A DNA stretch of 23,953 nt from a virus. The notes under the pieces are model-generated. The model was not told the DNA's origin. It saw nothing but the letters and a program-made list of their open reading frames with translations, and searched no databases. The position numbers and the translations under genes are program-made. Where the stretch lies: IMG/VR virus record IMGVR_UViG_3300033571_029008, positions 1 through 23,953 of that record. One strand, written 5' to 3'. This document shows, in pieces, positions 673-22,373 of the stretch. Every line of letters starts with the position of its first letter. Within the stretch, counting starts at the first letter, position 1.

Positions 673-3453
673 TTAAATAGTACAATTTACAGAAGTTTGA
701 ACATTTCCAGTAGTTTTCAATACACCCAAGATTGGATGAAGTATAGCACCGGAACCAGTATCCGAACTAACTGTAATGATTGGAAAACTATCGACAACTG
801 TATTTATGGATATATTCTCATAGATTTGACCATTAACAGGAATGCCATTTATTGTTGCAGTTAATGAAGTGATCTGATATGTCTGATCATCAATCGTAAT
901 TACATTTGTTGAAGGAGTTGCCTGATAATTTTGATTATCTACAACAATATTATCATTAAATTGAATTGGTTGATTATCAATTTGAACATTTTCATCCACA
1001 GGACTAATTTCATAATTTTGACCGTCAATAGAAATTATACTTGTCGAAATGACTAATTGACCATTTACAATATCAACTGAAGGAATAAACTGACCATCAA
1101 CAATATTAATCGAAGGTATTAATTTCCCATCAATGGCATCAATCGGGAGAGACAATTCTCCATTAATTATTGAATTAATAGGTATCGATTTACCATCAAC
1201 AATAATTGATAAAGGTGCTGTAGAAGGTATTATTTCGTAGTTCAATCCATTTATTTGAATTATATTTGAAGGAGTATCATCTCCAAAATAACGTGTTACT
1301 TGATAATTTGTTCCACCAATTTGAATAATATTTGAATCAGATCCAGTTTCAAGATCTTCATCTCCAACTATAATATCATCACTTAGAGGTGTTATCTGAT
1401 AATTAATCTCATTTATTTGAACAATACTTGGAGAAGGATTTACCTGAAATTGTTCATCACCAATTACCAAATTATCATCAGAAAGTGTTAATTGATAATT
1501 TCGTCCATCAATAATTATATTATTATTCAATGGATTTATTTGATAATTTTGCCCACCAATTATATCATTATTATTCGATGGCGTAATTCTATAAATTTGC
1601 CCTTCAATCACGACAATTGCATCTTTTTTATTTGAAGGTTTAACTTGATAGATTTGTCCATTAACAATTTGGAAATTATAATAATTGCCAAAATTATCTC
1701 TAACTTGAGCATCTCTATAACCATTACCACCATCTTCGATATACACATCAATAATAGAATAATCACGAATATTGCCGACAGTATAATTTTCACCTTCAGA
1801 AACAATATAAATTGATTTTACTTGCCCCTTTGAATTAATTGTTGCTCTTGCAACCGCACCATATCCTTGATCATTATCATCAACGATCTCAACAAAAGGT
1901 GGGAAAGTATATCCAGAACCTCGATTTGTAACTTGAACACCAATAACGCTTGCAGTAGTTTGACCACCATTAGTTTGAACTATATTACCAAAAATTGGCG
2001 ATGCGGTAGCACCTTTACCATCTGCACCAAAAATTCTAACTTTAGGAGGATTTGCTCTTTTTAGTGATCCTGTAAAACATTTCTTTACAGAATTAATATC
2101 TGCTCCAGATTTTATAATATCTACAGTATCTTTTACTGAATTATAAGTATTCGCCATGGAATTTACTAATGATGAAACAGATCCAGACGATCCACCTCCA
2201 ATTGCCCATTCATTTACCATTCCTTTGAATGATTGTGTACTTTGATTACATGCAAATCCAACGACTGCTTTAGTAAGTGCTCCTGCCCCCTCTCTTAAAA
2301 TATTTCCCAAATCAAATCCTGAAACGAATTTCAATATAGTTTTAACAGCCCCTAAAGGACCACCCATTAAATTTTCTATTACTCCAACAATAGAATTTAA
2401 TAATGAACCTGTAAATTGTTCTGCCGCACAACTCACAAATCTTTTCACATTTGATAAAGTTGAATCTAAGATTTTCGAAACATAACCCTTCAAGGAATTC
2501 ATTACATTTCCAAGTACACAAGAAAAAGATTCCTCCAATGCTTTCACTGGACCAGTCATTGCCTTTTGTGCAGCAACACCTGCGAGATGAGATACGACAG
2601 GATTTCCAGTAGCAGCAAATACCGTAGCATAAACGAATTTATATAACGCATCCAATCCCATTTTTAAGAGAGGTGTTAATTGACTAATCATGAAATCAAA
2701 TACAGTTCCAACTAAGTCATTAGCTAATGTGACTACTTTATCTACAACATTACTAATTTCGGAACGAATTCTTTCAACATTTCCTTGAAATTTTTCAATT
2801 TTTCTGATAAGATTATTAACTGTAGATGTAATCTTATCAAATTGAGTATTTTTTGTGGTATTTGCGAGTGGAGTTTTTTCTCCAATTGCAAAATTTAATG
2901 AAACTATTTTTTCTCCAACTTTACTAGATACTTCTCTTGCCTGCTTATCTGAAATATTTTGAGGAGTGCGATTCGACGTTTCTTTTGGTTCGTTTGATTC
3001 CGCATTCGAATTAGGTGATGGAGTAAGTGCACTATTTTTAGGAATTAAACTAGAATACCCAGTAAATGCCTCGAATGGTGATCTCCAAGTTTTCGATGGA
3101 GTGGAATCTGTTCTTCCAAAAGTGGAAAGAATCACAGGAATTTGAGCATTATCTCCATCAAGAAAGAATCCAAGAACAACATCTCCAGGTTGTAATTGAA
3201 CTCCAGTACAAGCATTTGCTGCTCCTGATCCAGCAGTTGTTGGAATTAATGCCTGTGCCCAAGGAAGATCTTTACTGGGAAGTTCTGCCTCACTATATGG
3301 ATGATACCCAAGTATTCTAACCTTAAATCTATTACCCCATCCACCACCAGTTAATTGATTCCCCATAGATTCTATAGGTGGAATTTGTCCTATCCACCAA
3401 CGAAATCCATCTCTTCCTATAAAATGACTTTGAAGTAATGATTGGTCTAACAT
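673..3453 (-). CDS. 5: gp5-like baseplate hub/spike protein with OB-fold and long repeat array, no lysozyme domain
   Basis: The protein is 926 aa, against 575 in T4 gp5. Residues 10-115 match the gp5 OB-fold: WWIGQI near the start, FKVRILGYHPYSEAELPSKD, LPWAQALIPTTAGSG, QLQPGDVVLGFFLDGDNAQIPVILSTFGRT. Residues about 200-450 are amphipathic helical segments with several cysteines. About 480-570 is a Gly-rich beta module. From about 590 to 885 (nt 800-1680) a short motif, roughly I-x-G-x-x-Y-Q-I-x-P-S, recurs many times with drift. The C-terminus resembles the bacterial-type module again (SGAILHPILG). The T4 gp5 lysozyme domain is absent. It probably sits in the tail hub with the next upstream product (gp27-like) and carries the spike. 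Confidence 0.8.
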   Translation of the reverse strand: MLDQSLLQSHFIGRDGFRWWIGQIPPIESMGNQLTGGGWGNRFKVRILGYHPYSEAELPSKDLPWAQALIPTTAGSGAANACTGVQLQPGDVVLGFFLDGDNAQIPVILSTFGRTDSTPSKTWRSPFEAFTGYSSLIPKNSALTPSPNSNAESNEPKETSNRTPQNISDKQAREVSSKVGEKIVSLNFAIGEKTPLANTTKNTQFDKITSTVNNLIRKIEKFQGNVERIRSEISNVVDKVVTLANDLVGTVFDFMISQLTPLLKMGLDALYKFVYATVFAATGNPVVSHLAGVAAQKAMTGPVKALEESFSCVLGNVMNSLKGYVSKILDSTLSNVKRFVSCAAEQFTGSLLNSIVGVIENLMGGPLGAVKTILKFVSGFDLGNILREGAGALTKAVVGFACNQSTQSFKGMVNEWAIGGGSSGSVSSLVNSMANTYNSVKDTVDIIKSGADINSVKKCFTGSLKRANPPKVRIFGADGKGATASPIFGNIVQTNGGQTTASVIGVQVTNRGSGYTFPPFVEIVDDNDQGYGAVARATINSKGQVKSIYIVSEGENYTVGNIRDYSIIDVYIEDGGNGYRDAQVRDNFGNYYNFQIVNGQIYQVKPSNKKDAIVVIEGQIYRITPSNNNDIIGGQNYQINPLNNNIIIDGRNYQLTLSDDNLVIGDEQFQVNPSPSIVQINEINYQITPLSDDIIVGDEDLETGSDSNIIQIGGTNYQVTRYFGDDTPSNIIQINGLNYEIIPSTAPLSIIVDGKSIPINSIINGELSLPIDAIDGKLIPSINIVDGQFIPSVDIVNGQLVISTSIISIDGQNYEISPVDENVQIDNQPIQFNDNIVVDNQNYQATPSTNVITIDDQTYQITSLTATINGIPVNGQIYENISINTVVDSFPIITVSSDTGSGAILHPILGVLKTTGNVQTSVNCTI
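800..1680 (-). repeat. Tandem short-repeat array inside the gp5-like gene
   Basis: The translated array has well over ten copies of a 16-22 residue unit centred on GQ-x-YQI-x-PS with Asn/Asp-rich linkers (for example GQNYQINPLNNN, GRNYQLTLSDDN, GTNYQVTRYFGDD). Copies differ at the DNA level, so the array is old or selected at protein level. Unit length and linker vary. A beta-solenoid or stacked beta-hairpins is the likely fold, by inference. Confidence 0.8.
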
Positions 3454-3456
3454 TTA

Positions 3457-4812
3457 CTAGTTTCTTGCGCCTACATTAATACCAAATGTATCTCTCACTA
3501 ATTTCATAGAAGTATATGAACGAGAAGCATCAAAATGATGACACAACTCCTTAATCATATATAGTCCACTTATTTCCTGATCATATTCTTTTGCATCTGT
3601 TTGAGTAATTTTTGGAAATAAGCATTCAATCACATCACCTGCTCTTAAGTTTGTGTTTGAAGGTACAATAATACTTAAGGTCTGAGTGAATAAAATATTA
3701 TACCTCATCAAAACTTGTGATTGGTATTCAGTTTGATTCGAATTGATCTGAGTAGAAACTCCTACATCTAAGGTACCAACATCATAAATGGATGTAATAA
3801 TTCTAGTCGGTACATCACCTAAACTCTTATTTGATCCATCAGATAATGGAGGAAGTTTAATTTTACTTCCGAGATTTTTAGTTTTTGATACATAATTTTT
3901 CAGTGTGAATAAACCTTCTTCTGGTTTAGAAAAAGAAAAATTCAACGGATTGAAAAACATTCTATGAGTCGCATAAGTCCCAAGTTTAAGTTTTTCAATT
4001 AAATTTTGATTTTTTTCTGTAAAATAATTTAGAATTTTAAAATCATTATTAATTTTATTGTCATTTACATCGTAAGACACATTAGCCTGATTATAAGTAT
4101 AAACTATACTTCTTCCATTTACATCTTTTCTTGGTTTTTGATTAACCAACCGATCTACAGATCGAAATTGAAAACCATCTTGAGTTTGATAAAATAAGAA
4201 ACCTGCAGTTGCGCCACCAGAACTCTCTGGAACTGCTTTAGATGCTAACCAAACTAAAACAGTAAAAGGTTTTCTCATATTACCAATAAAACCATATTTG
4301 TTTGAGGTTTTATCAATAACTCCAATTTTAGAAGTTTTAAGAGTATTTCTTAAGATATCTTGAACAGAATCACTAATTTTTAAACTTGTTGGATATTTTC
4401 TAGAAACTCTTGTAGTTTCATTTGTAATCGCTTCTCTTGAAACTAAATGAAGAGTAAAACTCTCTTGATTTGTTTCTGAAATTACATCTGTAATACTTGA
4501 AACATATAAGTAATCTTCAACTCTTCTTGAAAAATTTAATCCAGGATTTGTGGTAGAATTTCCAGCAATTTTCATTGAAAGTCTTTCACCACCTCTTAAA
4601 GGAAGTCCATTGTAAATAGATTGTTTTGTTGCACCATTCTGGGAAACAATTGAGTTTCCTGTATTTACAACTTTAATTTTTGCAGTAATTGTAGGTGAAA
4701 AAATGTCTTCATAATAATCTATTGAAATTACACCAGTGGAGATATTAACAGATCTCTTACGATCATTTGATTCTAAAGTTAATTCTTCGTATATAGATTT
4801 TGTAATTGACAT
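3457..4812 (-). CDS. 27: gp27-like baseplate hub protein
   Basis: This 451-aa protein sits directly upstream of the gp5-like gene and its start overlaps the stop of the 932-aa gene by one base (TAATG). It is rich in beta strands: N-terminal ISTGVISIDYYEDIFSPTITAKIKVV, a domain with SITDVISETNQESFTLHLVSREAI, then DSVQDILRNTL and FTVLVWLASKAVP. The C-terminal part has LRAGDVIECLFPKI and SGLYMIKELCHHFDASRSYTSMKLVRDTFG, typical of the hub fold shared by T4 gp27, Mu gp44 and VgrG N-terminal domains. T4 gp27 is 391 aa. The assignment rests on these motifs, length and position next to gp5; sequence identity to T4 gp27 is too low to see by eye. Confidence 0.65.
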   Translation of the reverse strand: MSITKSIYEELTLESNDRKRSVNISTGVISIDYYEDIFSPTITAKIKVVNTGNSIVSQNGATKQSIYNGLPLRGGERLSMKIAGNSTTNPGLNFSRRVEDYLYVSSITDVISETNQESFTLHLVSREAITNETTRVSRKYPTSLKISDSVQDILRNTLKTSKIGVIDKTSNKYGFIGNMRKPFTVLVWLASKAVPESSGGATAGFLFYQTQDGFQFRSVDRLVNQKPRKDVNGRSIVYTYNQANVSYDVNDNKINNDFKILNYFTEKNQNLIEKLKLGTYATHRMFFNPLNFSFSKPEEGLFTLKNYVSKTKNLGSKIKLPPLSDGSNKSLGDVPTRIITSIYDVGTLDVGVSTQINSNQTEYQSQVLMRYNILFTQTLSIIVPSNTNLRAGDVIECLFPKITQTDAKEYDQEISGLYMIKELCHHFDASRSYTSMKLVRDTFGINVGARN

Positions 4813-7610
4813 TATAAGTACGCCATATCCAATAAGAGTTTATTTTTAATAAAATTATTTAACATATCAAAATCTGATATTTGAGGCATGGTATTTGCAG
4901 ACTCATTTTGATTTGAAATTATAATATTCTTATTCGAAGGATTTTGTATCACAACAATATCTTGCCCTCGTCTTTCTGGAGTAATAGAAGAAGGAACTTC
5001 TTTACTTTTTTCAGGTGAAGACATTTTTACAGGAGATGGATTAATATTTACATCTTCTTGATCAGTTGGAGATAAATTTACTTCTCCAGATTCAGACAAC
5101 GAATTAATATTCTGAATTATGTTTGAAGACATAAAAACATTTTCATTATTTATAATTGAAGGTATATTTTTAATTTCTTGTGAAATCGTACTCATCTTTT
5201 CTGGAATCATAGTAAAAGAAGTTTCAGGAGATCGTTCAGAAGAAATAAATGCATCACTCGAAAAAGGAACAAAAGAATTGAGATTAGTCTTTAATATCTG
5301 AGAAATATTTGTGAAATTAAAAGTCTGAGTCTGAGGATTGATAACTTGAGACTCATTCATTTGTAACTGATTTGGTAAATTATTATCAGGAATCACTTCT
5401 TCTGTTTGAGGAATTGAATAAGATATTTTCTGAGGAGTTAATGAATTTGTCGAAAAAGTTGGAATAATTGGTGCTGCTTTTGCAGTTATTAATTGTGTTT
5501 GTGGTTGATTTAAAACATTGACATTTTCTTCTTCTTTTATCAACGGAGAAGATAAAGGTTCAACTGATTCATCTCTATTCACCAGAATAATTGGAGATGT
5601 TATCTCTGAATTCATTAATTGTGTCTGTGGTTGAATTTGAATATTATTATTTGGAATCTCATTCTCTCTTCTTGGAATTGAATAAGATACTTTCGGAGGA
5701 GTTAATGAATTTGTTGAGGTAATTGATGCTATTTCTGAATTCACTAATCGTGTTTGTGGTACAGAAAAGATAGAATCTATTTCTCGCAAACTCTGAAGAG
5801 ATTGTTGGGGATTTCTAGGAGTAATCGACGATCTAACTGGTGGACTTGCATTAGATTTATTAGATGGTGGAGTTACAACTCTATTTTGCTTAAAACTTTG
5901 ATTTGAAATATTTGGTTTCGAAATTGGCGCTGCTGGTACTTGTCTTGGTTTTTCTATTCTAGGAGAAGTATTAGTTTCGGGTTCAGTATAAAATGGTGCA
6001 TTTGCACTATATCTATTAAGTGGAGAAAATTTATTTGTTATTTGATATCCAGTCCACCCTGTTCCTGCTTCCCAGTGAAGATGTGGCCCAGTACTTCTTC
6101 CCGTAGATCCAACAGATCCAATCACTTCACCTTTTTTAACCTTACCTCTTTTTTTATAACCAGGTAACATATGACCATATAAATGATGAATTCCTTTATC
6201 ATCTACCATTATTAAAAAATACCCCCATCCTTTGTGATAATCAGAATCGATAATTTCTCCATCTGAAATTGCTCTTAATGGTGTTCCAGAAGGCATTGCT
6301 AAGTCATCACCGTGATGTATCCTACCAAATTTACCTTCCTTATCATATCTACCAGTAATTGTTGGTTTGATTTTATTTTTTGGAATAGGTACCTGTTTAA
6401 TAGATGTTTCGGGTCTTGTTGCAGGTATTTCTGAACTTTTTTTAACTTTATTTAAAGCAGATAGAATATCATTTGGTTTTAAATAACTACGTTGACCTGA
6501 ATATGAAAAATTACCACTAGCGTTTGGTAAAGCTGCCCATTCATTTGCAAGACCTTGCATAAAACTTTCATTGGACATTTTTCCCGCTAACCATTGATTA
6601 CCACCCCGTTTTTCGATTAATTTTATAGCAAGTACATCTTGTACGGCAGGAGTAAAAATAGTTTTTTCATTATATCCAGCATCTTTTGCACGTTGTAATA
6701 AAAATTCTGGCATCTGTTGATAACGTCCTGACGCACCAGGAGCATTTCTAGCAATTTCCCCAATTGTCATTTGACTCAAACCAGGTCTTACTCCACGAGG
6801 AGCGCCATTCTGAGCATCATATCCATTATTTTTTTTGTCCGTTGAAGATTCTACAGAAGCAATCAAATCTAATAATGGTTTCCATCTACCTCCTCTGGAT
6901 AATGATCCGGATGGTGGTTGTTTTTCATATGCACCTTCACCAGTTACTTGAGTACCGAATTCAGGTATTTCTGCTCCACTATATTTCGGTTGAGTGAGTG
7001 GAGTTGTGACTAATCCAAATGCCTCTTCGATTTGATTACCCAGACCACCCATTGTTGTATTTAATTGATCTAAAGAATTTCTTAGGCGCTTAGATGAATC
7101 AAAAAAATCAAATGTCATTATATTCTGACCCAAAGATCCCAGAAGACCACCAAAATTTCTAAACAAATCAATTGTTCCACCCAAAAATTTAGTCATAATT
7201 TCAACTGTTTTTTGAATTCGGGCAATAAATTCTTTACCCATCCCAATAAAAGTTGAAAGATTATTTAATACCCATCCTGCAGACAGATATCCAATAAATC
7301 CTAAAATTCTATCAAAAAATCCACTATAGGTGTCAGATTGTATAAGTTGAAAAGGTCCACCGGGTTGTATCACCACATTAGGACTTTCAAGTTCATCTTC
7401 AGACTGTTTTCTTCGTTCATATTCAAATCTTTTTTCTTTATAAGATTTAATTTGAGTATAAGAATCTTTTTTTGCCTTTACATTTTCAGAAATTGTTTCA
7501 TAAACTTTTTTAATATTCTTATTAGAATTTAAAATTCCTTTATTTAAGGATGTTGTAGTTTTTTCTACTTTCTGAATATCTAAAGGTGATTTTAATGCTA
7601 AAGCTGCCAT
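4812..7610 (-). CDS. Tail-associated cell-wall hydrolase: lysozyme-like (GH104-type) plus M23 endopeptidase
   Basis: This 932-aa protein has two cell-wall enzymes. Residues 1-75 look coiled coil; 95-165 are hydrophobic helices. Residues 242-378 resemble the lambda R-type transglycosylase (GH104): LLDLIASVES with candidate catalytic Glu254, GYDAQNGAPRG, ASGRYQQMPEFL, VQDVLAIKLIEKRG, ANEWAALPNASG. Residues 420-515 are an M23 zinc endopeptidase: HHGDD (ligands His432, Asp436), LYGHM, GSVGSTGRSTGPHLHW (His510, His512). Residues 540-932 are Ser/Asn/Gln/Pro-rich with repeated PQTQL-NSEI-type blocks. By inference it digests the wall during injection, taking over the role of the T4 gp5 lysozyme domain, which this phage lacks. 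The N-terminal half shares a FDRI-x8-GW motif with the 1041-aa neighbour. Confidence 0.85.
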   Translation of the reverse strand: MAALALKSPLDIQKVEKTTTSLNKGILNSNKNIKKVYETISENVKAKKDSYTQIKSYKEKRFEYERRKQSEDELESPNVVIQPGGPFQLIQSDTYSGFFDRILGFIGYLSAGWVLNNLSTFIGMGKEFIARIQKTVEIMTKFLGGTIDLFRNFGGLLGSLGQNIMTFDFFDSSKRLRNSLDQLNTTMGGLGNQIEEAFGLVTTPLTQPKYSGAEIPEFGTQVTGEGAYEKQPPSGSLSRGGRWKPLLDLIASVESSTDKKNNGYDAQNGAPRGVRPGLSQMTIGEIARNAPGASGRYQQMPEFLLQRAKDAGYNEKTIFTPAVQDVLAIKLIEKRGGNQWLAGKMSNESFMQGLANEWAALPNASGNFSYSGQRSYLKPNDILSALNKVKKSSEIPATRPETSIKQVPIPKNKIKPTITGRYDKEGKFGRIHHGDDLAMPSGTPLRAISDGEIIDSDYHKGWGYFLIMVDDKGIHHLYGHMLPGYKKRGKVKKGEVIGSVGSTGRSTGPHLHWEAGTGWTGYQITNKFSPLNRYSANAPFYTEPETNTSPRIEKPRQVPAAPISKPNISNQSFKQNRVVTPPSNKSNASPPVRSSITPRNPQQSLQSLREIDSIFSVPQTRLVNSEIASITSTNSLTPPKVSYSIPRRENEIPNNNIQIQPQTQLMNSEITSPIILVNRDESVEPLSSPLIKEEENVNVLNQPQTQLITAKAAPIIPTFSTNSLTPQKISYSIPQTEEVIPDNNLPNQLQMNESQVINPQTQTFNFTNISQILKTNLNSFVPFSSDAFISSERSPETSFTMIPEKMSTISQEIKNIPSIINNENVFMSSNIIQNINSLSESGEVNLSPTDQEDVNINPSPVKMSSPEKSKEVPSSITPERRGQDIVVIQNPSNKNIIISNQNESANTMPQISDFDMLNNFIKNKLLLDMAYL

Positions 7611-7611
7611 T

Positions 7612-10600
7612 TTATATCACCACATTATAACTAAGTTGAGAATATAAAATATAAAAATTATCAACATTTCCGGAAGGAATAAACGGCACATCTGTTAGAG
7701 GTTCTTCTTGTGGAGTACCAATAATTTGAGTTTCATTTTTGTCACTATTTGCAATAATAATATTAGGTTTTGGTTCAGGTAAAGAAGTAACTTGATTCAA
7801 AGGTTTTTGAGGTTTTTGAATATTTGCAGGAGATACAGTTTCCACATCCTTTAACTTCATTTCTTTCCAATCATATCCTTTTGATATTGCCCAATTTTTT
7901 GCTTGTTGTTTTTGCTCTGGATTTAATTCATTCCACTTCTGCTGTATCTTACCTCTCGCTAAAGGATTATTTCTATATTTCCATGCCATCTCAAATCCTT
8001 GAATCATTTCTGGACTTGGTGGTTTTGTTTGTGATTGAATTTGAGGTTTTGCAGATGTTTGGGGTTGAATAGATGGTGGTGTAGGAACCTTTGACTGAAT
8101 TGAAGTTGAATTTGAAACTGTAGTTTCCATATTCTTTAACTTCATTTCTTTCCAATTATATCCTTTTGATGTGGCCCAGTCCTTTGCTTGTTGTTTTTGC
8201 TCTGGACTCATTTGATCCCATTTTTGTTGTATTTTCCCTTTTGCTAAAGGATTATTTCTATATTTCCATGCCATCTCAAATCCCCGAATCATCTCAGGAC
8301 TTGGTGGTTTTGCTTGTGATTGAATTTGAGGTGTAATAGGAGTTTGTGATTGAACAGATGATGTAGGAATTGTAGAAATTTTCGGAACTGATGTAGAAAG
8401 TAAGGGAGTTTGTGATTTATTCTCAGGTATTGTAAAAGTTGTCGGTGATTGCGATGAAGTTTGATTTTCAGAGTTAACTGGAATTTGTGATTGAGTCGAA
8501 GGAGTTGCAAGAGTCTGTAATTGATTTAAAGGAGGAGAAGAAGTATTAAAAAAATTAGAAAAAGATTGAATAAGCGAAGAAACTATAGATTTTTGTGGTT
8601 GAGTTATAGATTTCTGAAGAATTAAAGAGGATTGTGATTCTGTTGAAGGAATTACAGGAGTTTGTAATTCACTTTTAGGAGTTGTAGGAGTTTCTAAGGA
8701 TTGTGAATCATTTGATGAAAATATAGATTTGGGCAATTGAACAAAAGAATATGGTGAAGATGTAGGAGTCTGCTGTTGAATTATAGGTACAGCAGATGTT
8801 TGTGGTTGATTAGAAGATATTTCCGTTGTTATAAAAGGTTGAGATTGAATAGAAGAAGGTTGTATAATTATAGGTGTCTGAGGTTGAATTGGAGAAAATG
8901 AAGGAGATTGAGAAGTTATCTGAGATTTCTCTAAAGGAGATGCGGATGTCTGTGGTTGAATTGTAGGAGTTGTAGGTGCCTGTGGTTTAATCGAAAAGTT
9001 CGTAGAGGTTACAGGTGTCTGCGGTTGAATTGTAGGAGTTGTAGGAGTTGTAGGTTCCTGTAGTCGAACCATAGGCGATGCAGATCCCTGTGATTGAACA
9101 GGTGATGGCATAAGCGATGTGGTTCCCTGTGATTGTCCAGGTGATGGCATAGGCGATACAGATCCCTGTGATTGAACAGGTGATGGCATAAGCGATGTGG
9201 TTCCCTGTGATTGTCCAGGTGATAACATAGACGCTGCAGGGATCTGCGATTGAACAGGTGATGGCATAAGCGATGTGGTTCCCTGTGATTGTCCAGGTGA
9301 TAACATAGACGCTGCAGGGATCTGCGATTGACTAGATGCACCTTCAGGCATTTGTGAACGGGATAAAGATGTTGTAGGAGTTTGTGGTTGAACAACAGGC
9401 ATCTGTGATTTGCCAGGAGATGTTGCAGGAGTTGGTAAAGATTGTGATTGTCTCTGAGATGAAGATTTTAAAGGTGAAGATGGTGGGGAAGGTTTATTTG
9501 ATTGTGTTGCAGGTTTTTGTTTATCTTTGTTTTCAGAATCATAAACCATAGATTGACCAAATGCCGCTGCGCTTAATCCCAAAGAAGGTAATTGTAATCC
9601 AGGAATTAATGAAGTTAATGCTGCAGCACCATATAATCCTGCACCTGCAAGATTACCTTTACCTAATTCAGTACCAGCACCATAAACATCTATGGCAGTT
9701 CCGATAACAGGTAATCCTTTTCCAAGCATTTTTGCGCCTTTACCGAAAAAGGAAGGAATTTTTTTAACTGAAGTAAAGAAATTATCAACAGCACCACCAG
9801 ATTTAGATAAAGGTTTACTTCCACTTTTTGCCGCAGAAGAACCAGTGGATGAAGATGGTTTAGGTGTAGTCATTGCTTTTGCGGCACTAGCACTTGCCCC
9901 AAGAGCCTTTGCTGCAACAAATCCAGCAGCTTTAAATGGTGCAGATACAATTTTAGCAGTTAATCCAGCAAGTCTTAAAGAAAGACCAGTAATTGTCCTA
10001 ATTACAAGATCAAATCCAATTTTAATTGCCGTAAATGCACCTACTGAATATAAAACATTTTTAATTACATGATTTTTAATTTCTTCAAGTTTTTTTGTAT
10101 TTCCTTCCGTATATGCTCTTATAGTTTCAATTAATTGATTGGTTAACCAACCAAAAAATAATGTAGTTAAAGAATTTTTAATTCTATCAAATAAACCAGT
10201 AATATTTTTCTGTAAACTAACAATAGGACGAGATAAAGCAGCAGTAATTCTCCTTTCAAGAAGATTTTCTTTTCCTATTCTTACATTTCTTTCATTTAAT
10301 TTTCTTTCAGAATCTTGTTGATCCTGAAGATTTTTCTTTTCTATTAAACCTTCGAGTTTAAGTTGTTTCGAAGTATTCTGAATACCATCATTTAAAAATC
10401 GAATATTTGCCGCAATAATGTTTAAACTTTTTTGTAGAGTTCCAACATATTGCTGAGTTTGAGTAATTCTAGAATTCTGAGTCTGGTCCACCAAACTCAC
10501 TTGAGGTCTTACTACAATTGCACTACTTTTATTTGATATACCACTACCACCTCCTCCACCAATTACACTTCTTCCACCACCCCCACTACCTGTATTTTTT

Positions 10601-10737
10601 CTGAAAACCGAACTCGGTAAAGTTCTAATTCTTCCTAAAGAGAATTTTTGCAACTGAACTCTTTCATTGCTGGTATAATAACCACCCTCAGGCCTTTCCC
10701 CACTTTGAGCCCTTATACCAGCTTCTTCTCTATTCAT
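7612..10737 (-). CDS. Probable tape-measure protein, 1041 aa, low-complexity repeats
   Basis: It lies directly after the gp26/frameshift chaperone genes, the position of the tape measure in tailed phages. Residues 48-70 are Gly-rich; 85-165 form a probable coiled coil; 175-290 and 340-395 are hydrophobic or Ala/Gly-rich segments, as in many tape measures. About 405-960 is Pro/Ser/Gln/Thr-rich, including near-perfect 26-residue repeats (nt about 9070-9330). Two copies of a roughly 60-residue module (PSPEMI, GFEMAWKYRNNPLA, GKIQQKW, PEQKQQAK, KGY-WKEMKLK) follow at nt about 8130-8310 and 7840-8025. T4 gp29 is 590 aa; no sequence match to it is visible, so the role is inferred from order and composition. 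A late-promoter motif lies about 36 bases upstream. Confidence 0.5.
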   Translation of the reverse strand: MNREEAGIRAQSGERPEGGYYTSNERVQLQKFSLGRIRTLPSSVFRKNTGSGGGGRSVIGGGGGSGISNKSSAIVVRPQVSLVDQTQNSRITQTQQYVGTLQKSLNIIAANIRFLNDGIQNTSKQLKLEGLIEKKNLQDQQDSERKLNERNVRIGKENLLERRITAALSRPIVSLQKNITGLFDRIKNSLTTLFFGWLTNQLIETIRAYTEGNTKKLEEIKNHVIKNVLYSVGAFTAIKIGFDLVIRTITGLSLRLAGLTAKIVSAPFKAAGFVAAKALGASASAAKAMTTPKPSSSTGSSAAKSGSKPLSKSGGAVDNFFTSVKKIPSFFGKGAKMLGKGLPVIGTAIDVYGAGTELGKGNLAGAGLYGAAALTSLIPGLQLPSLGLSAAAFGQSMVYDSENKDKQKPATQSNKPSPPSSPLKSSSQRQSQSLPTPATSPGKSQMPVVQPQTPTTSLSRSQMPEGASSQSQIPAASMLSPGQSQGTTSLMPSPVQSQIPAASMLSPGQSQGTTSLMPSPVQSQGSVSPMPSPGQSQGTTSLMPSPVQSQGSASPMVRLQEPTTPTTPTIQPQTPVTSTNFSIKPQAPTTPTIQPQTSASPLEKSQITSQSPSFSPIQPQTPIIIQPSSIQSQPFITTEISSNQPQTSAVPIIQQQTPTSSPYSFVQLPKSIFSSNDSQSLETPTTPKSELQTPVIPSTESQSSLILQKSITQPQKSIVSSLIQSFSNFFNTSSPPLNQLQTLATPSTQSQIPVNSENQTSSQSPTTFTIPENKSQTPLLSTSVPKISTIPTSSVQSQTPITPQIQSQAKPPSPEMIRGFEMAWKYRNNPLAKGKIQQKWDQMSPEQKQQAKDWATSKGYNWKEMKLKNMETTVSNSTSIQSKVPTPPSIQPQTSAKPQIQSQTKPPSPEMIQGFEMAWKYRNNPLARGKIQQKWNELNPEQKQQAKNWAISKGYDWKEMKLKDVETVSPANIQKPQKPLNQVTSLPEPKPNIIIANSDKNETQIIGTPQEEPLTDVPFIPSGNVDNFYILYSQLSYNVVI
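7839..8310 (-). repeat. Two copies of a ~60-aa module about 290 bp apart
   Basis: Copy A is at about 8130-8310 and copy B at about 7839-8025. Both read PPSPEMI(R/Q)GFEMAWKYR, then NNPLA(K/R)GKIQQKW, (D/S or N)-PEQKQQAK, W-x-SKGY-(N/D)-WKEMKLK. Copies differ by scattered substitutions, so the duplication is not recent. The helical, charged, Trp-rich module contrasts with the low-complexity sequence around it. Confidence 0.85.
9070..9332 (-). repeat. Tandem DNA repeat, 78-bp period, in the tape-measure-like gene
   Basis: The string TGATGGCATAAGCGATGTGG begins at 9181 and again at 9259, exactly 78 bp apart, and the copies stay essentially identical to about 9330. A half-unit of 39 bp (13 residues ending MPSPVQ or MLSPGQ) is repeated more loosely from about 9070. 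The unit encodes 26 residues, so length changes by whole units keep the frame. Near-identity suggests recent or ongoing duplication. Confidence 0.9.
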
Positions 10738-10803: not shown

Positions 10804-10974
10804 TTATTTTTGTTGATTTTTCAAGTTTTCTTCTTCAATATGTTGTTGAAGAAGACTAATATAAACCTCTCGTTCCCAAGGAAGCATATCTTCAATTTCA
10901 CTTAAAGACCAATGATGATGTTGTATAAGGGAGAAGTTAGTCTGATAATAAGATGCAAGATTTGTATGCATCAT
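10804..10974 (-). CDS. Small tail-assembly chaperone ORF (second ORF of a frameshift pair)
   Basis: This 56-aa ORF starts ATGATG two bases after the stop of the gp26-like gene. It reads MMHTNLASYYQTNFSLIQHH, followed by HWSLSEIEDMLPWER and EVYISLLQQHIEEE. The W-x-L-x-EI-x-x-M-x-x-x-E pattern is typical of the short T-type or second chaperone ORF found after gpG-like genes in many tailed phages. There is no good Shine-Dalgarno for its own ATG. Its frame is entered exactly by a -1 slip at the T TTT TTC heptamer 10983-10989, so it is probably made mainly as the C-terminal extension of the gp26-like protein. It lies immediately before the putative tape measure. Confidence 0.75.
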   Translation of the reverse strand: MMHTNLASYYQTNFSLIQHHHWSLSEIEDMLPWEREVYISLLQQHIEEENLKNQQK

Positions 10975-10976
10975 TC

Positions 10977-11705
10977 CTAGACGAAAAAAGAGTTTAATCC
11001 CTCTAACACTACTTTACTTTCAACTTTAGTATTTGGATTTTTTATTTTAATCGTATGAGAAAGTTTAGGCATGGTATCGAAAAATTTCTCAATTTCTTTG
11101 AACTGTTTTGAAGTTAATTGATCCACAAATTCTCGAATTTCATCTTTACTAAAATCAGTTGCCACCCAAGTCTCTTCTTTATCATAAATCTGTTCAATGC
11201 AAGAACATATAATATCTAAAGTTTCATCAACTTTTGGAGAAGACTCATCATTACTAAATGAAAAATTATTTTTCACGAATTGAGACATAGAAGGATACTT
11301 CATTCTTATTGACAATTCATTATTTAATTTAATATCTTTCTTATGCTCTTTACTAAAAACAACTTTAATTTCATCCAGATCAACATTTACTGGAACCTGA
11401 GTCGTCCCATCATCTGGGCAAGTAATAAGAACTTCTACATTTTCTCCTACAGATTTTCCTCTAATGTTAAGAAATAGATATTCGATATCAAATGTCGTTA
11501 ATTGATCAACATCTAAATCGGATGTAAGAATACAATTCGTAATAACAGTTTTAACTGCTTCTGCAATCTGTTTAGAATCTTCACTTTCCATTGCAATAAT
11601 TAAAACTTTTTCTTCCTTTACTAAAAAAGGGCGATATTTTATTGTTTTCTTTATTGATGGTATTTCCAATTCATAAGTAGGCGTTGCAATTTTAGGTAAT
11701 GCCAT
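10977..11705 (-). CDS. 26: gp26-like baseplate/tail assembly protein (T4_baseplate family, chaperone-like)
   Basis: This 242-aa protein begins MALPKIATPTYELEIPSIKK and continues YRPFLVKEEKVLIIAMES, AVKTVITNCI, LTTFDIEYLFLNIRGKSVGE, ITCPDDGT and a C-terminal Asp/Glu- and Lys-rich domain with IICSCIEQIY. This is the pattern of the T4 gp26/gp51 baseplate family (T4 gp26 is 208 aa). In T4 the family helps to assemble the baseplate hub. Here it lies between the gp54-like tube initiator and the tape-measure candidate and ends in a slippery sequence, which suggests a tail-assembly chaperone like lambda gpG. A late-promoter motif is 32 bases upstream. Confidence 0.85.
   Translation of the reverse strand: MALPKIATPTYELEIPSIKKTIKYRPFLVKEEKVLIIAMESEDSKQIAEAVKTVITNCILTSDLDVDQLTTFDIEYLFLNIRGKSVGENVEVLITCPDDGTTQVPVNVDLDEIKVVFSKEHKKDIKLNNELSIRMKYPSMSQFVKNNFSFSNDESSPKVDETLDIICSCIEQIYDKEETWVATDFSKDEIREFVDQLTSKQFKEIEKFFDTMPKLSHTIKIKNPNTKVESKVVLEGLNSFFV
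10983..10989 (-). promoter_or_regulatory. Predicted -1 ribosomal frameshift heptamer T TTT TTC
   Basis: In the zero frame the codons are AAC TCT TTT TTC GTC TAG. The heptamer fits X XXY YYZ with X and Y both T. A one-base slip back continues CGT CTA GGA ATG ATG CAT, in frame with the 56-aa ORF, with no stop between. The slip site is two codons before the zero-frame stop. The fusion would be 300 aa (10804-11705). Confidence 0.75.
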
Positions 11706-21728: not shown

Positions 21729-21735
21729 TATTTAG
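21729..21735 (-). promoter_or_regulatory. Possible late promoter motif CTAAATA
   Basis: The heptamer overlaps the stop codon of the 77-aa gene and lies 29 bases before the 202-aa gene. It equals the leftward motif at 12473-12479. Confidence 0.3.
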
Positions 21736-21965
21736 TCTTCATCGATGTTGTCTGCATCATCGTCATCAAAATAATCAGGATTAAAACTAATTGCTAAGAC
21801 TTCATCTGGTATAATGTTTCCATTTTTGTCATAAAATTCTGGATGAAGTTTGGGTCTATCTTGATAATTCATCATATATTCTCGAATATTCCAACCAATC
21901 GTAACTCCGATTAAAAAGAATAGAATAATTATCGAGGAAATAAAAATTGAACCAGATACTAACAT
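21732..21965 (-). CDS. Small single-pass membrane protein
   Basis: The 77-aa protein has one hydrophobic segment at residues 5-25 (GSIFISSIIILFFLIGVTIG), then WNIREYMMNYQDRPKLHPEF, YDKNGNIIPDEVLAISFNPD and a very acidic tail. HPE-x-x-D-x-NGN-x-x-x-DE-(I/V)-L is shared with small cyanophage membrane proteins. Topology is probably N-out, C-terminal tail in the cytoplasm, by inference. It has a good ribosome site (ACGGAG, 8 bases before ATG). Function is unknown. Confidence 0.75.
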   Translation of the reverse strand: MLVSGSIFISSIIILFFLIGVTIGWNIREYMMNYQDRPKLHPEFYDKNGNIIPDEVLAISFNPDYFDDDDADNIDED

Positions 21966-22122
21966 TTTTTTCTCCGTGAAGTTATAAAAAATTCAAAATG
22001 AATATTTACATCCCATTTTGAAAGGGAGAAAATTCTTTTAAAAATAAGATTAAAAAATTTAGACTGCTTTTTTTTACCTCCGTTCAAGATAAAATCTACA
22101 CCACGATTTTGATGTATATTAC

Positions 22123-22129
22123 TATTTAG
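22123..22129 (-). promoter_or_regulatory. Possible late promoter motif CTAAATA
   Basis: The motif CTAAATAG lies just after the glutaredoxin stop, at the head of a 168-base gap before the membrane-protein gene. The gap holds no convincing gene, which would make it a long leader. Confidence 0.3.
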
Positions 22130-22133
22130 ATCT

Positions 22134-22373
22134 TTATTTGACAATTTGTTTTTCTTTTAGAAATTGAATAGATTGAACACATCCACCTAACTTTTCTCCA
22201 TCACAGAGTACTTGAGGAAAAGTTGAACCTTCTCCAAACTCCGAATAGAATTGTTCTTTAGTGAAATGTTCATCCAGATTATACACGACAAACTTATTTC
22301 CTGTCAATTCTAAAATCATTTCAATTTTTTTGCAGAAGGGGCATCCTTCTTTGGAATAAACTACAAAATTCAT
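22134..22373 (-). CDS. grx: Glutaredoxin
   Basis: The 79-aa protein has the CPFC redox site (residues 11-14), the STFPQV cis-proline segment and LGGCVQSIQFL, the glutathione-binding GG motif. This is a compact glutaredoxin like T4 nrdC. It would supply electrons to ribonucleotide reductase for deoxyribonucleotide synthesis, matching the nearby thyX in purpose. No reductase gene lies in this window. Confidence 0.92.
   Translation of the reverse strand: MNFVVYSKEGCPFCKKIEMILELTGNKFVVYNLDEHFTKEQFYSEFGEGSTFPQVLCDGEKLGGCVQSIQFLKEKQIVK

Follow-up and report, generated by a model that had tools for sequence, protein, structure and literature searches.

Predicted -1 frameshifting at the end of a gp26-like gene

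The gp26-like gene of this virus very probably encodes two forms of a tail assembly chaperone. A -1 slip at the heptamer T TTT TTC, stimulated by an SD-like element and, in the clade, by a hairpin, would give a short protein of 242 aa and a long protein of 300 aa (probability about 0.93). We infer the shift itself, its rate, the action of the stimulators and the chaperone roles from what was observed directly, namely the sequence, frame, conservation, codon choice, covariation and homology to T4 gp51. The features below lie in the window, i.e., the whole stretch of 23,953 nucleotides that was analysed.

10977..11705, minus strand: predicted short chaperone form, a gp26-like baseplate hub protein of 242 aa (PF12322, T4_baseplate, E 2.7e-73; phrog_150, E 9.5e-82)
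10999..11003, minus strand: SD-like GAGGG (Glu-Gly codons), 9 nt upstream of the heptamer (AGGG in 78/80 relatives)
10983..10989, minus strand: slippery heptamer T TTT TTC, phased X XXY YYZ (80/80 relatives)
10977..10979, minus strand: zero-frame stop TAG of the short form
10804..10983, minus strand: -1 extension past the Phe-Phe of the heptamer, 59 aa and a stop, including the 56-aa ORF 10804-10974, the cyanophage 'gp51' (phrog_634, E 1.1e-25; C-terminal end of phrog_150; a module shared with the T4 gp51 C-terminus)
10952..10972, minus strand: hairpin GAUGCA-loop-UGCAUC, a possible 3' stimulator overlapping the ATG codons of the 56-aa ORF (covariation across the clade, stability compared with synonymous recoding; weak in the copy of the window)

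The gene runs from 11705 to 10977 and ends GAG GGA TTA AAC TCT TTT TTC GTC TAG, so that a single codon (GTC) separates the heptamer from the stop. After a slip, the reading would continue as TTT TTT CGT CTA GGA ATG ATG, free of stops until 10804-10806. The predicted fusion has a mass of 34.9 kDa, and the short form 27.8 kDa. The original prediction had T TTT TTC feeding the frame of the 56-aa ORF without a stop; this placement is correct and gives the 300-aa reading. Among the 84 phased X XXY YYZ heptamers in the genes of the window, two lie within a few codons of a stop and open into a long -1 frame: T TTT TTC at 10983-10989, with an opening of 61 codons, and an A AAA AAA at the end of the ORF 22144-21959, with an opening of 79 codons. 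The latter stands four codons ahead of the stop of a 61-aa ORF with a TTG start (21959-22144, minus strand), and its -1 opening leads into a membrane-like 77-aa ORF (21732-21965, minus strand).

Conservation of the slip site among relatives

For comparison, 161 IMG/VR matches and the window were reduced to 101 distinct genes and then to 80 non-redundant representatives with less than 85% DNA identity to each other; Caulobacter phage Cr30 was set aside. All 80 carry T TTT TTC exactly one codon ahead of the stop, and every complete -1 frame continues for 58-65 further codons without a stop. Because the sequences are mutually related, the counts are not independent, but the representatives have diverged considerably. 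The invariance of the heptamer is far beyond chance. Thus, the slip site and the downstream frame, whose alignment across marine relatives had been suggested as a check, are both kept without exception, which supports the proposal of a -1 shift that joins the small ORF to the end of the gp26-like protein, after the manner of lambda G/GT.

The arrangement had been ascribed to marine T4-like phages, but it is wider. T TTT TTN stands at the equivalent place in KVP40 and in Aeromonas CC2, Pseudomonas, Stenotrophomonas, Caulobacter, Rhizobium and Agrobacterium phages, the site having been inspected in about a dozen of 713 matching phage records. A scan with gp26 of Vibrio D490 found nothing, and one with gp26 of Cr30 found only Cr30 itself and one distant locus.

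The two protein parts and the T4-type gene pair

The 242-aa protein matches the Pfam profile PF12322 with 246.7 bits, above the gathering cut-off of 24.5 (E 2.7e-73). Two profiles are hit by the 56-aa ORF: phrog_634, annotated 'baseplate hub assembly catalyst' (gp51), which T4 gp51 matches as well, and phrog_150 of the gp26 family, at its C-terminal end. Since T4 gp51 (249 aa) holds PF12322 and the phrog_634 module in a single ORF, and T4 gp26 (208 aa) holds PF12322 alone, the marine 'gp51' corresponds to the last part of a long chaperone. Cyanophage gp51 has been described as only ~20% of the usual length, with the first ~200 residues missing (Sullivan et al. 2010, PMC3037559); frameshifting would account for this truncation. 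A search of solved structures by sequence found no relative. A fold search of the PDB gave nothing significant; the HK97 chaperone 2ob9 appeared at ranks 4 and 5 with a non-significant E of 1.4-1.6.

T4-type phages, in which gp26 and gp51 are the short and long paralogues and the heptamer is absent, are a natural control. PF12322 occurs twice in T4, Muldoon, Klebsiella phi1_146002 and Aeromonas 50AhydR13PP, and once in P-SSM2 and ten other single-gene phages. The window record, a fragment of 23,953 bases, contains one copy, as does its complete relative P-SSM2; the two-gene arrangement of T4 was found in neither. Where there are two genes, gp26 encodes its Phe-Phe site as TTC TTT or has it altered; the site is never slippery, and the heptamer is absent. 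The C-terminal module is then read in frame as part of gp51, and the junction, mostly (V/I)F(K/R/N)(L/I), aligns with the predicted FFR(L/I/V). Among the single-copy records, 9/11 have T TTT TTN.

A tree separated all single-copy proteins from gp26 and gp51 together (support 99/98), the pattern that a single duplication in the T4 lineage would leave. As the tree was midpoint-rooted, we infer the direction of this duplication. With that rooting, the view that the frameshift is the ancestral chaperone mechanism holds up: it is probably older than the two genes of T4.

In Vibrio K355 and Erwinia phiEa2809, there is a single PF12322 protein with the C-terminal module in the -1 frame and no canonical heptamer, only T TTC at the end of gp26. 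This sequence might allow the slippage of one tRNA-Phe. The missing heptamer of these two phages counts against the frameshift reading.

Candidate stimulators on both sides of the heptamer

The original prediction was right about the heptamer and the frame but overlooked an SD-like element upstream and a hairpin downstream. AGGG lies 9 nt from the heptamer in 67/80 representatives, the window included, and 8 nt from it in another 11/80, i.e., 78/80 in total. The window's spacing of 9 nt falls inside the 9-14 nt that Atkins et al. (2016, PMC5009743) quote for -1 shifts stimulated by SD-like elements. The Glu codon of the element is GAG in 66/79 cases, compared with 29% in the gene bodies. Where it is GAA, the following Gly codon is GGG in 11 of 13 genes, against 8 of 66 genes with GAG (Fisher p 5e-7). 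These codon counts indicate that the SD-like AGGG is kept through coupled codon changes.

The 50 nt beginning 3 nt past the heptamer are more stable than dinucleotide shuffles (mean z -2.6). Against synonymous recodings with an unchanged -1 peptide, the hairpin region is again the more stable fold (mean z -3.4 over n=79; 0.0 and -0.7 in control regions). In the clade of the window, a 10-bp stem starts 5-6 nt past the heptamer and changes on both sides at three pairs; 93.7% of cells pair, and such percentages lean towards the structures because sequences were sorted into the two hairpin alignments after the folds had been inspected, while the synonymous-recoding test was ungrouped and used all 79. 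At stem columns 21/35, the synonymous third base of Ala tracks Glu/Ala/Val changes across the stem (UA 22, GC 12, AU 6). The second set of sequences forms a compact 5-bp hairpin at nearly the same place, also with double changes. In this alignment (A3: L064, L148, L152 and others), the compact hairpin lies 10-31 nt past the heptamer start and replaces the 10-bp stem in one subclade. The compact hairpin gives the impression of a stimulator that was built anew in a different register.

The window's own hairpin is weak (-7.1 kcal/mol), with z of about -1 to -2 and -1.0 against synonymous recodings, which is not clearly better. It retains six core pairs, three of them unlike the consensus. Thus, the downstream hairpin of a dnaX-like cassette is present for the clade and weak in the window itself. 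Since the hairpins of Rhizobium, Agrobacterium, Pseudomonas and Aeromonas CC2 phages were no better than shuffles, we make no claim of stimulators for the whole family.

Alternative explanations

Current annotations imply another origin for the 56-aa gp51: separate synthesis by termination-reinitiation at TAGGAATGATG, the heptamer being incidental. We consider this very unlikely. It is true that the window has an ATG 2 nt past the stop, that 63/80 relatives have one among their first -1 codons, and that gp51 is annotated as a separate CDS in GenBank records. However, 17/80 relatives have no such early ATG, and 4/80 have none within 14 codons. The SD-like AGGG is ~24 nt from the ATG, beyond the ordinary initiation distance, and the ATG is overlapped by the hairpin. 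Moreover, FFR(L/I/V) is kept in the codons ahead of the ATG, and the fusion is made in frame by T4-type phages. On these grounds, reinitiation as the sole source of the product was rejected; since most relatives, including the window, have an ATG close to where the small ORF begins, some separate initiation may accompany the -1 slip.

That TTTTTT is kept merely because the protein needs Phe-Phe and prefers AT-rich codons has almost no probability: G-(L/V/I)-x-x-F-F is indeed kept at the C-terminus as protein sequence, also in T4 gp26 (GLKEFF), but T4 encodes the same Phe-Phe as TTC TTT, and TTT-TTC is fixed at the site in 80/80 representatives against the bias of the same genes (3/79 for their other Phe-Phe pairs), a contradiction on which we rejected it. 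The codon ahead of Phe-Phe also ends in T in 80/80. Equally negligible is the joining of the frames by transcriptional rather than ribosomal slippage on the T run: in some systems polymerase can slip on T runs, but six T are short for this, and the fixed final C, the SD-like spacing within the quoted -1 range of 9-14 nt and the hairpin all fit ribosomal slippage.

Proposed mechanism and relation to known systems

With -1 ribosomal slippage as the preferred reading, the majority of ribosomes would terminate at TAG and release the 242-aa short form. A fraction would shift into the -1 frame at T TTT TTC and produce the 300-aa long form with the C-terminal 'gp51' module. The slip may be aided by pairing of the upstream SD-like element with 16S rRNA and, in the clade, by the downstream hairpin. 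By analogy with lambda G/GT, the short form might coat the tape measure or hub proteins, and the C-terminal module of the long form might recruit tail tube or hub subunits.

The original prediction knew of no description of frameshifting in the gp26/gp51 family. However, T4-like tail assembly chaperones were identified by Vladimirov, Gautam & Davidson (2022, Virology 566:9-15), as reported in two citing papers (PMC10885494, PMC12846349). One of these credits that work for poly-T -1 sites in T4-like phages and the other for the alternative of a short gene and a long gene. As cited there, the core of our finding is therefore known in kind: the gp26/gp51 family, the short and long forms and the poly-T sites are shared. 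T4 and its close kin use two genes, whereas the window has one gene and a predicted shift. A search of mainly open-access literature did not find the SD-like element or the hairpin described at the gp26/gp51 site.

Lambda G/GT is analogous: its -1 shift also falls close to where the short form ends, and its C-terminal module also lies in the -1 frame, but its heptamer is unlike that of the window. According to Atkins et al. (2016, PMC5009743), stimulators apparently play no part in the shifts of certain tailed phages, in contrast to the SD-like element and hairpin at the gp26-like site. The E. coli dnaX cassette is similar in having an SD-like element upstream at -1 spacing, a slippery heptamer and a hairpin shortly downstream. 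It differs in its heptamer (A AAA AAG), and at the gp26-like site the frameshift product is the longer one. In Vandenendeviridae/Andersonviridae, as in phage Adele (PMC12846349), a myovirus tail chaperone also shifts -1 at a poly-T motif, but the motif is GTTTTT and the phage families are other than that of the window.

The stimulators would imply a higher shift rate than in lambda. We give even odds to a more specific proposal, namely that the chaperone shift of Kyanoviridae runs on a stimulated cassette of three parts (SD-like element, T TTT TTC and a covarying hairpin, rebuilt in a second register in one subclade) that sets the long:short ratio above the unstimulated lambda type and was replaced in T4 by the separately controlled gp26/gp51 pair. 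In the gp26/gp51 family, the same pair of products would come from recoding in one lineage and from gene duplication in another. As the stimulators are conserved, the ratio in which the two chaperones are needed can be tested directly, and the gp51 annotation of many cyanophage genomes would be corrected.

In the record of Citrobacter phage Moon, gp27 and gp28 are joined as a 'GT-like fusion' (3750-5388); apparently, the chaperone frameshift was sought in other genes.

Neighbouring genes in the window

The long gene downstream of the chaperone (7612-10737, minus strand) gave no tape-measure match and has no similarity to the Cr30 gene annotated as tape measure. It encodes a 1041-aa protein with Pro/Gln/Ser-rich tandem repeats (SPGQSQGTTSLMPSPVQSQ), whose only family match is a weak PHROG of unassigned function. 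The product of the gene at 673-3453 (minus strand) is 926 aa long and contains numerous diverged repeats of the IIQINGLNYEI type. The 932-aa protein encoded at 4812-7610 (minus strand) combines an M23 peptidase domain with an endolysin-like stretch and is probably tail-associated.
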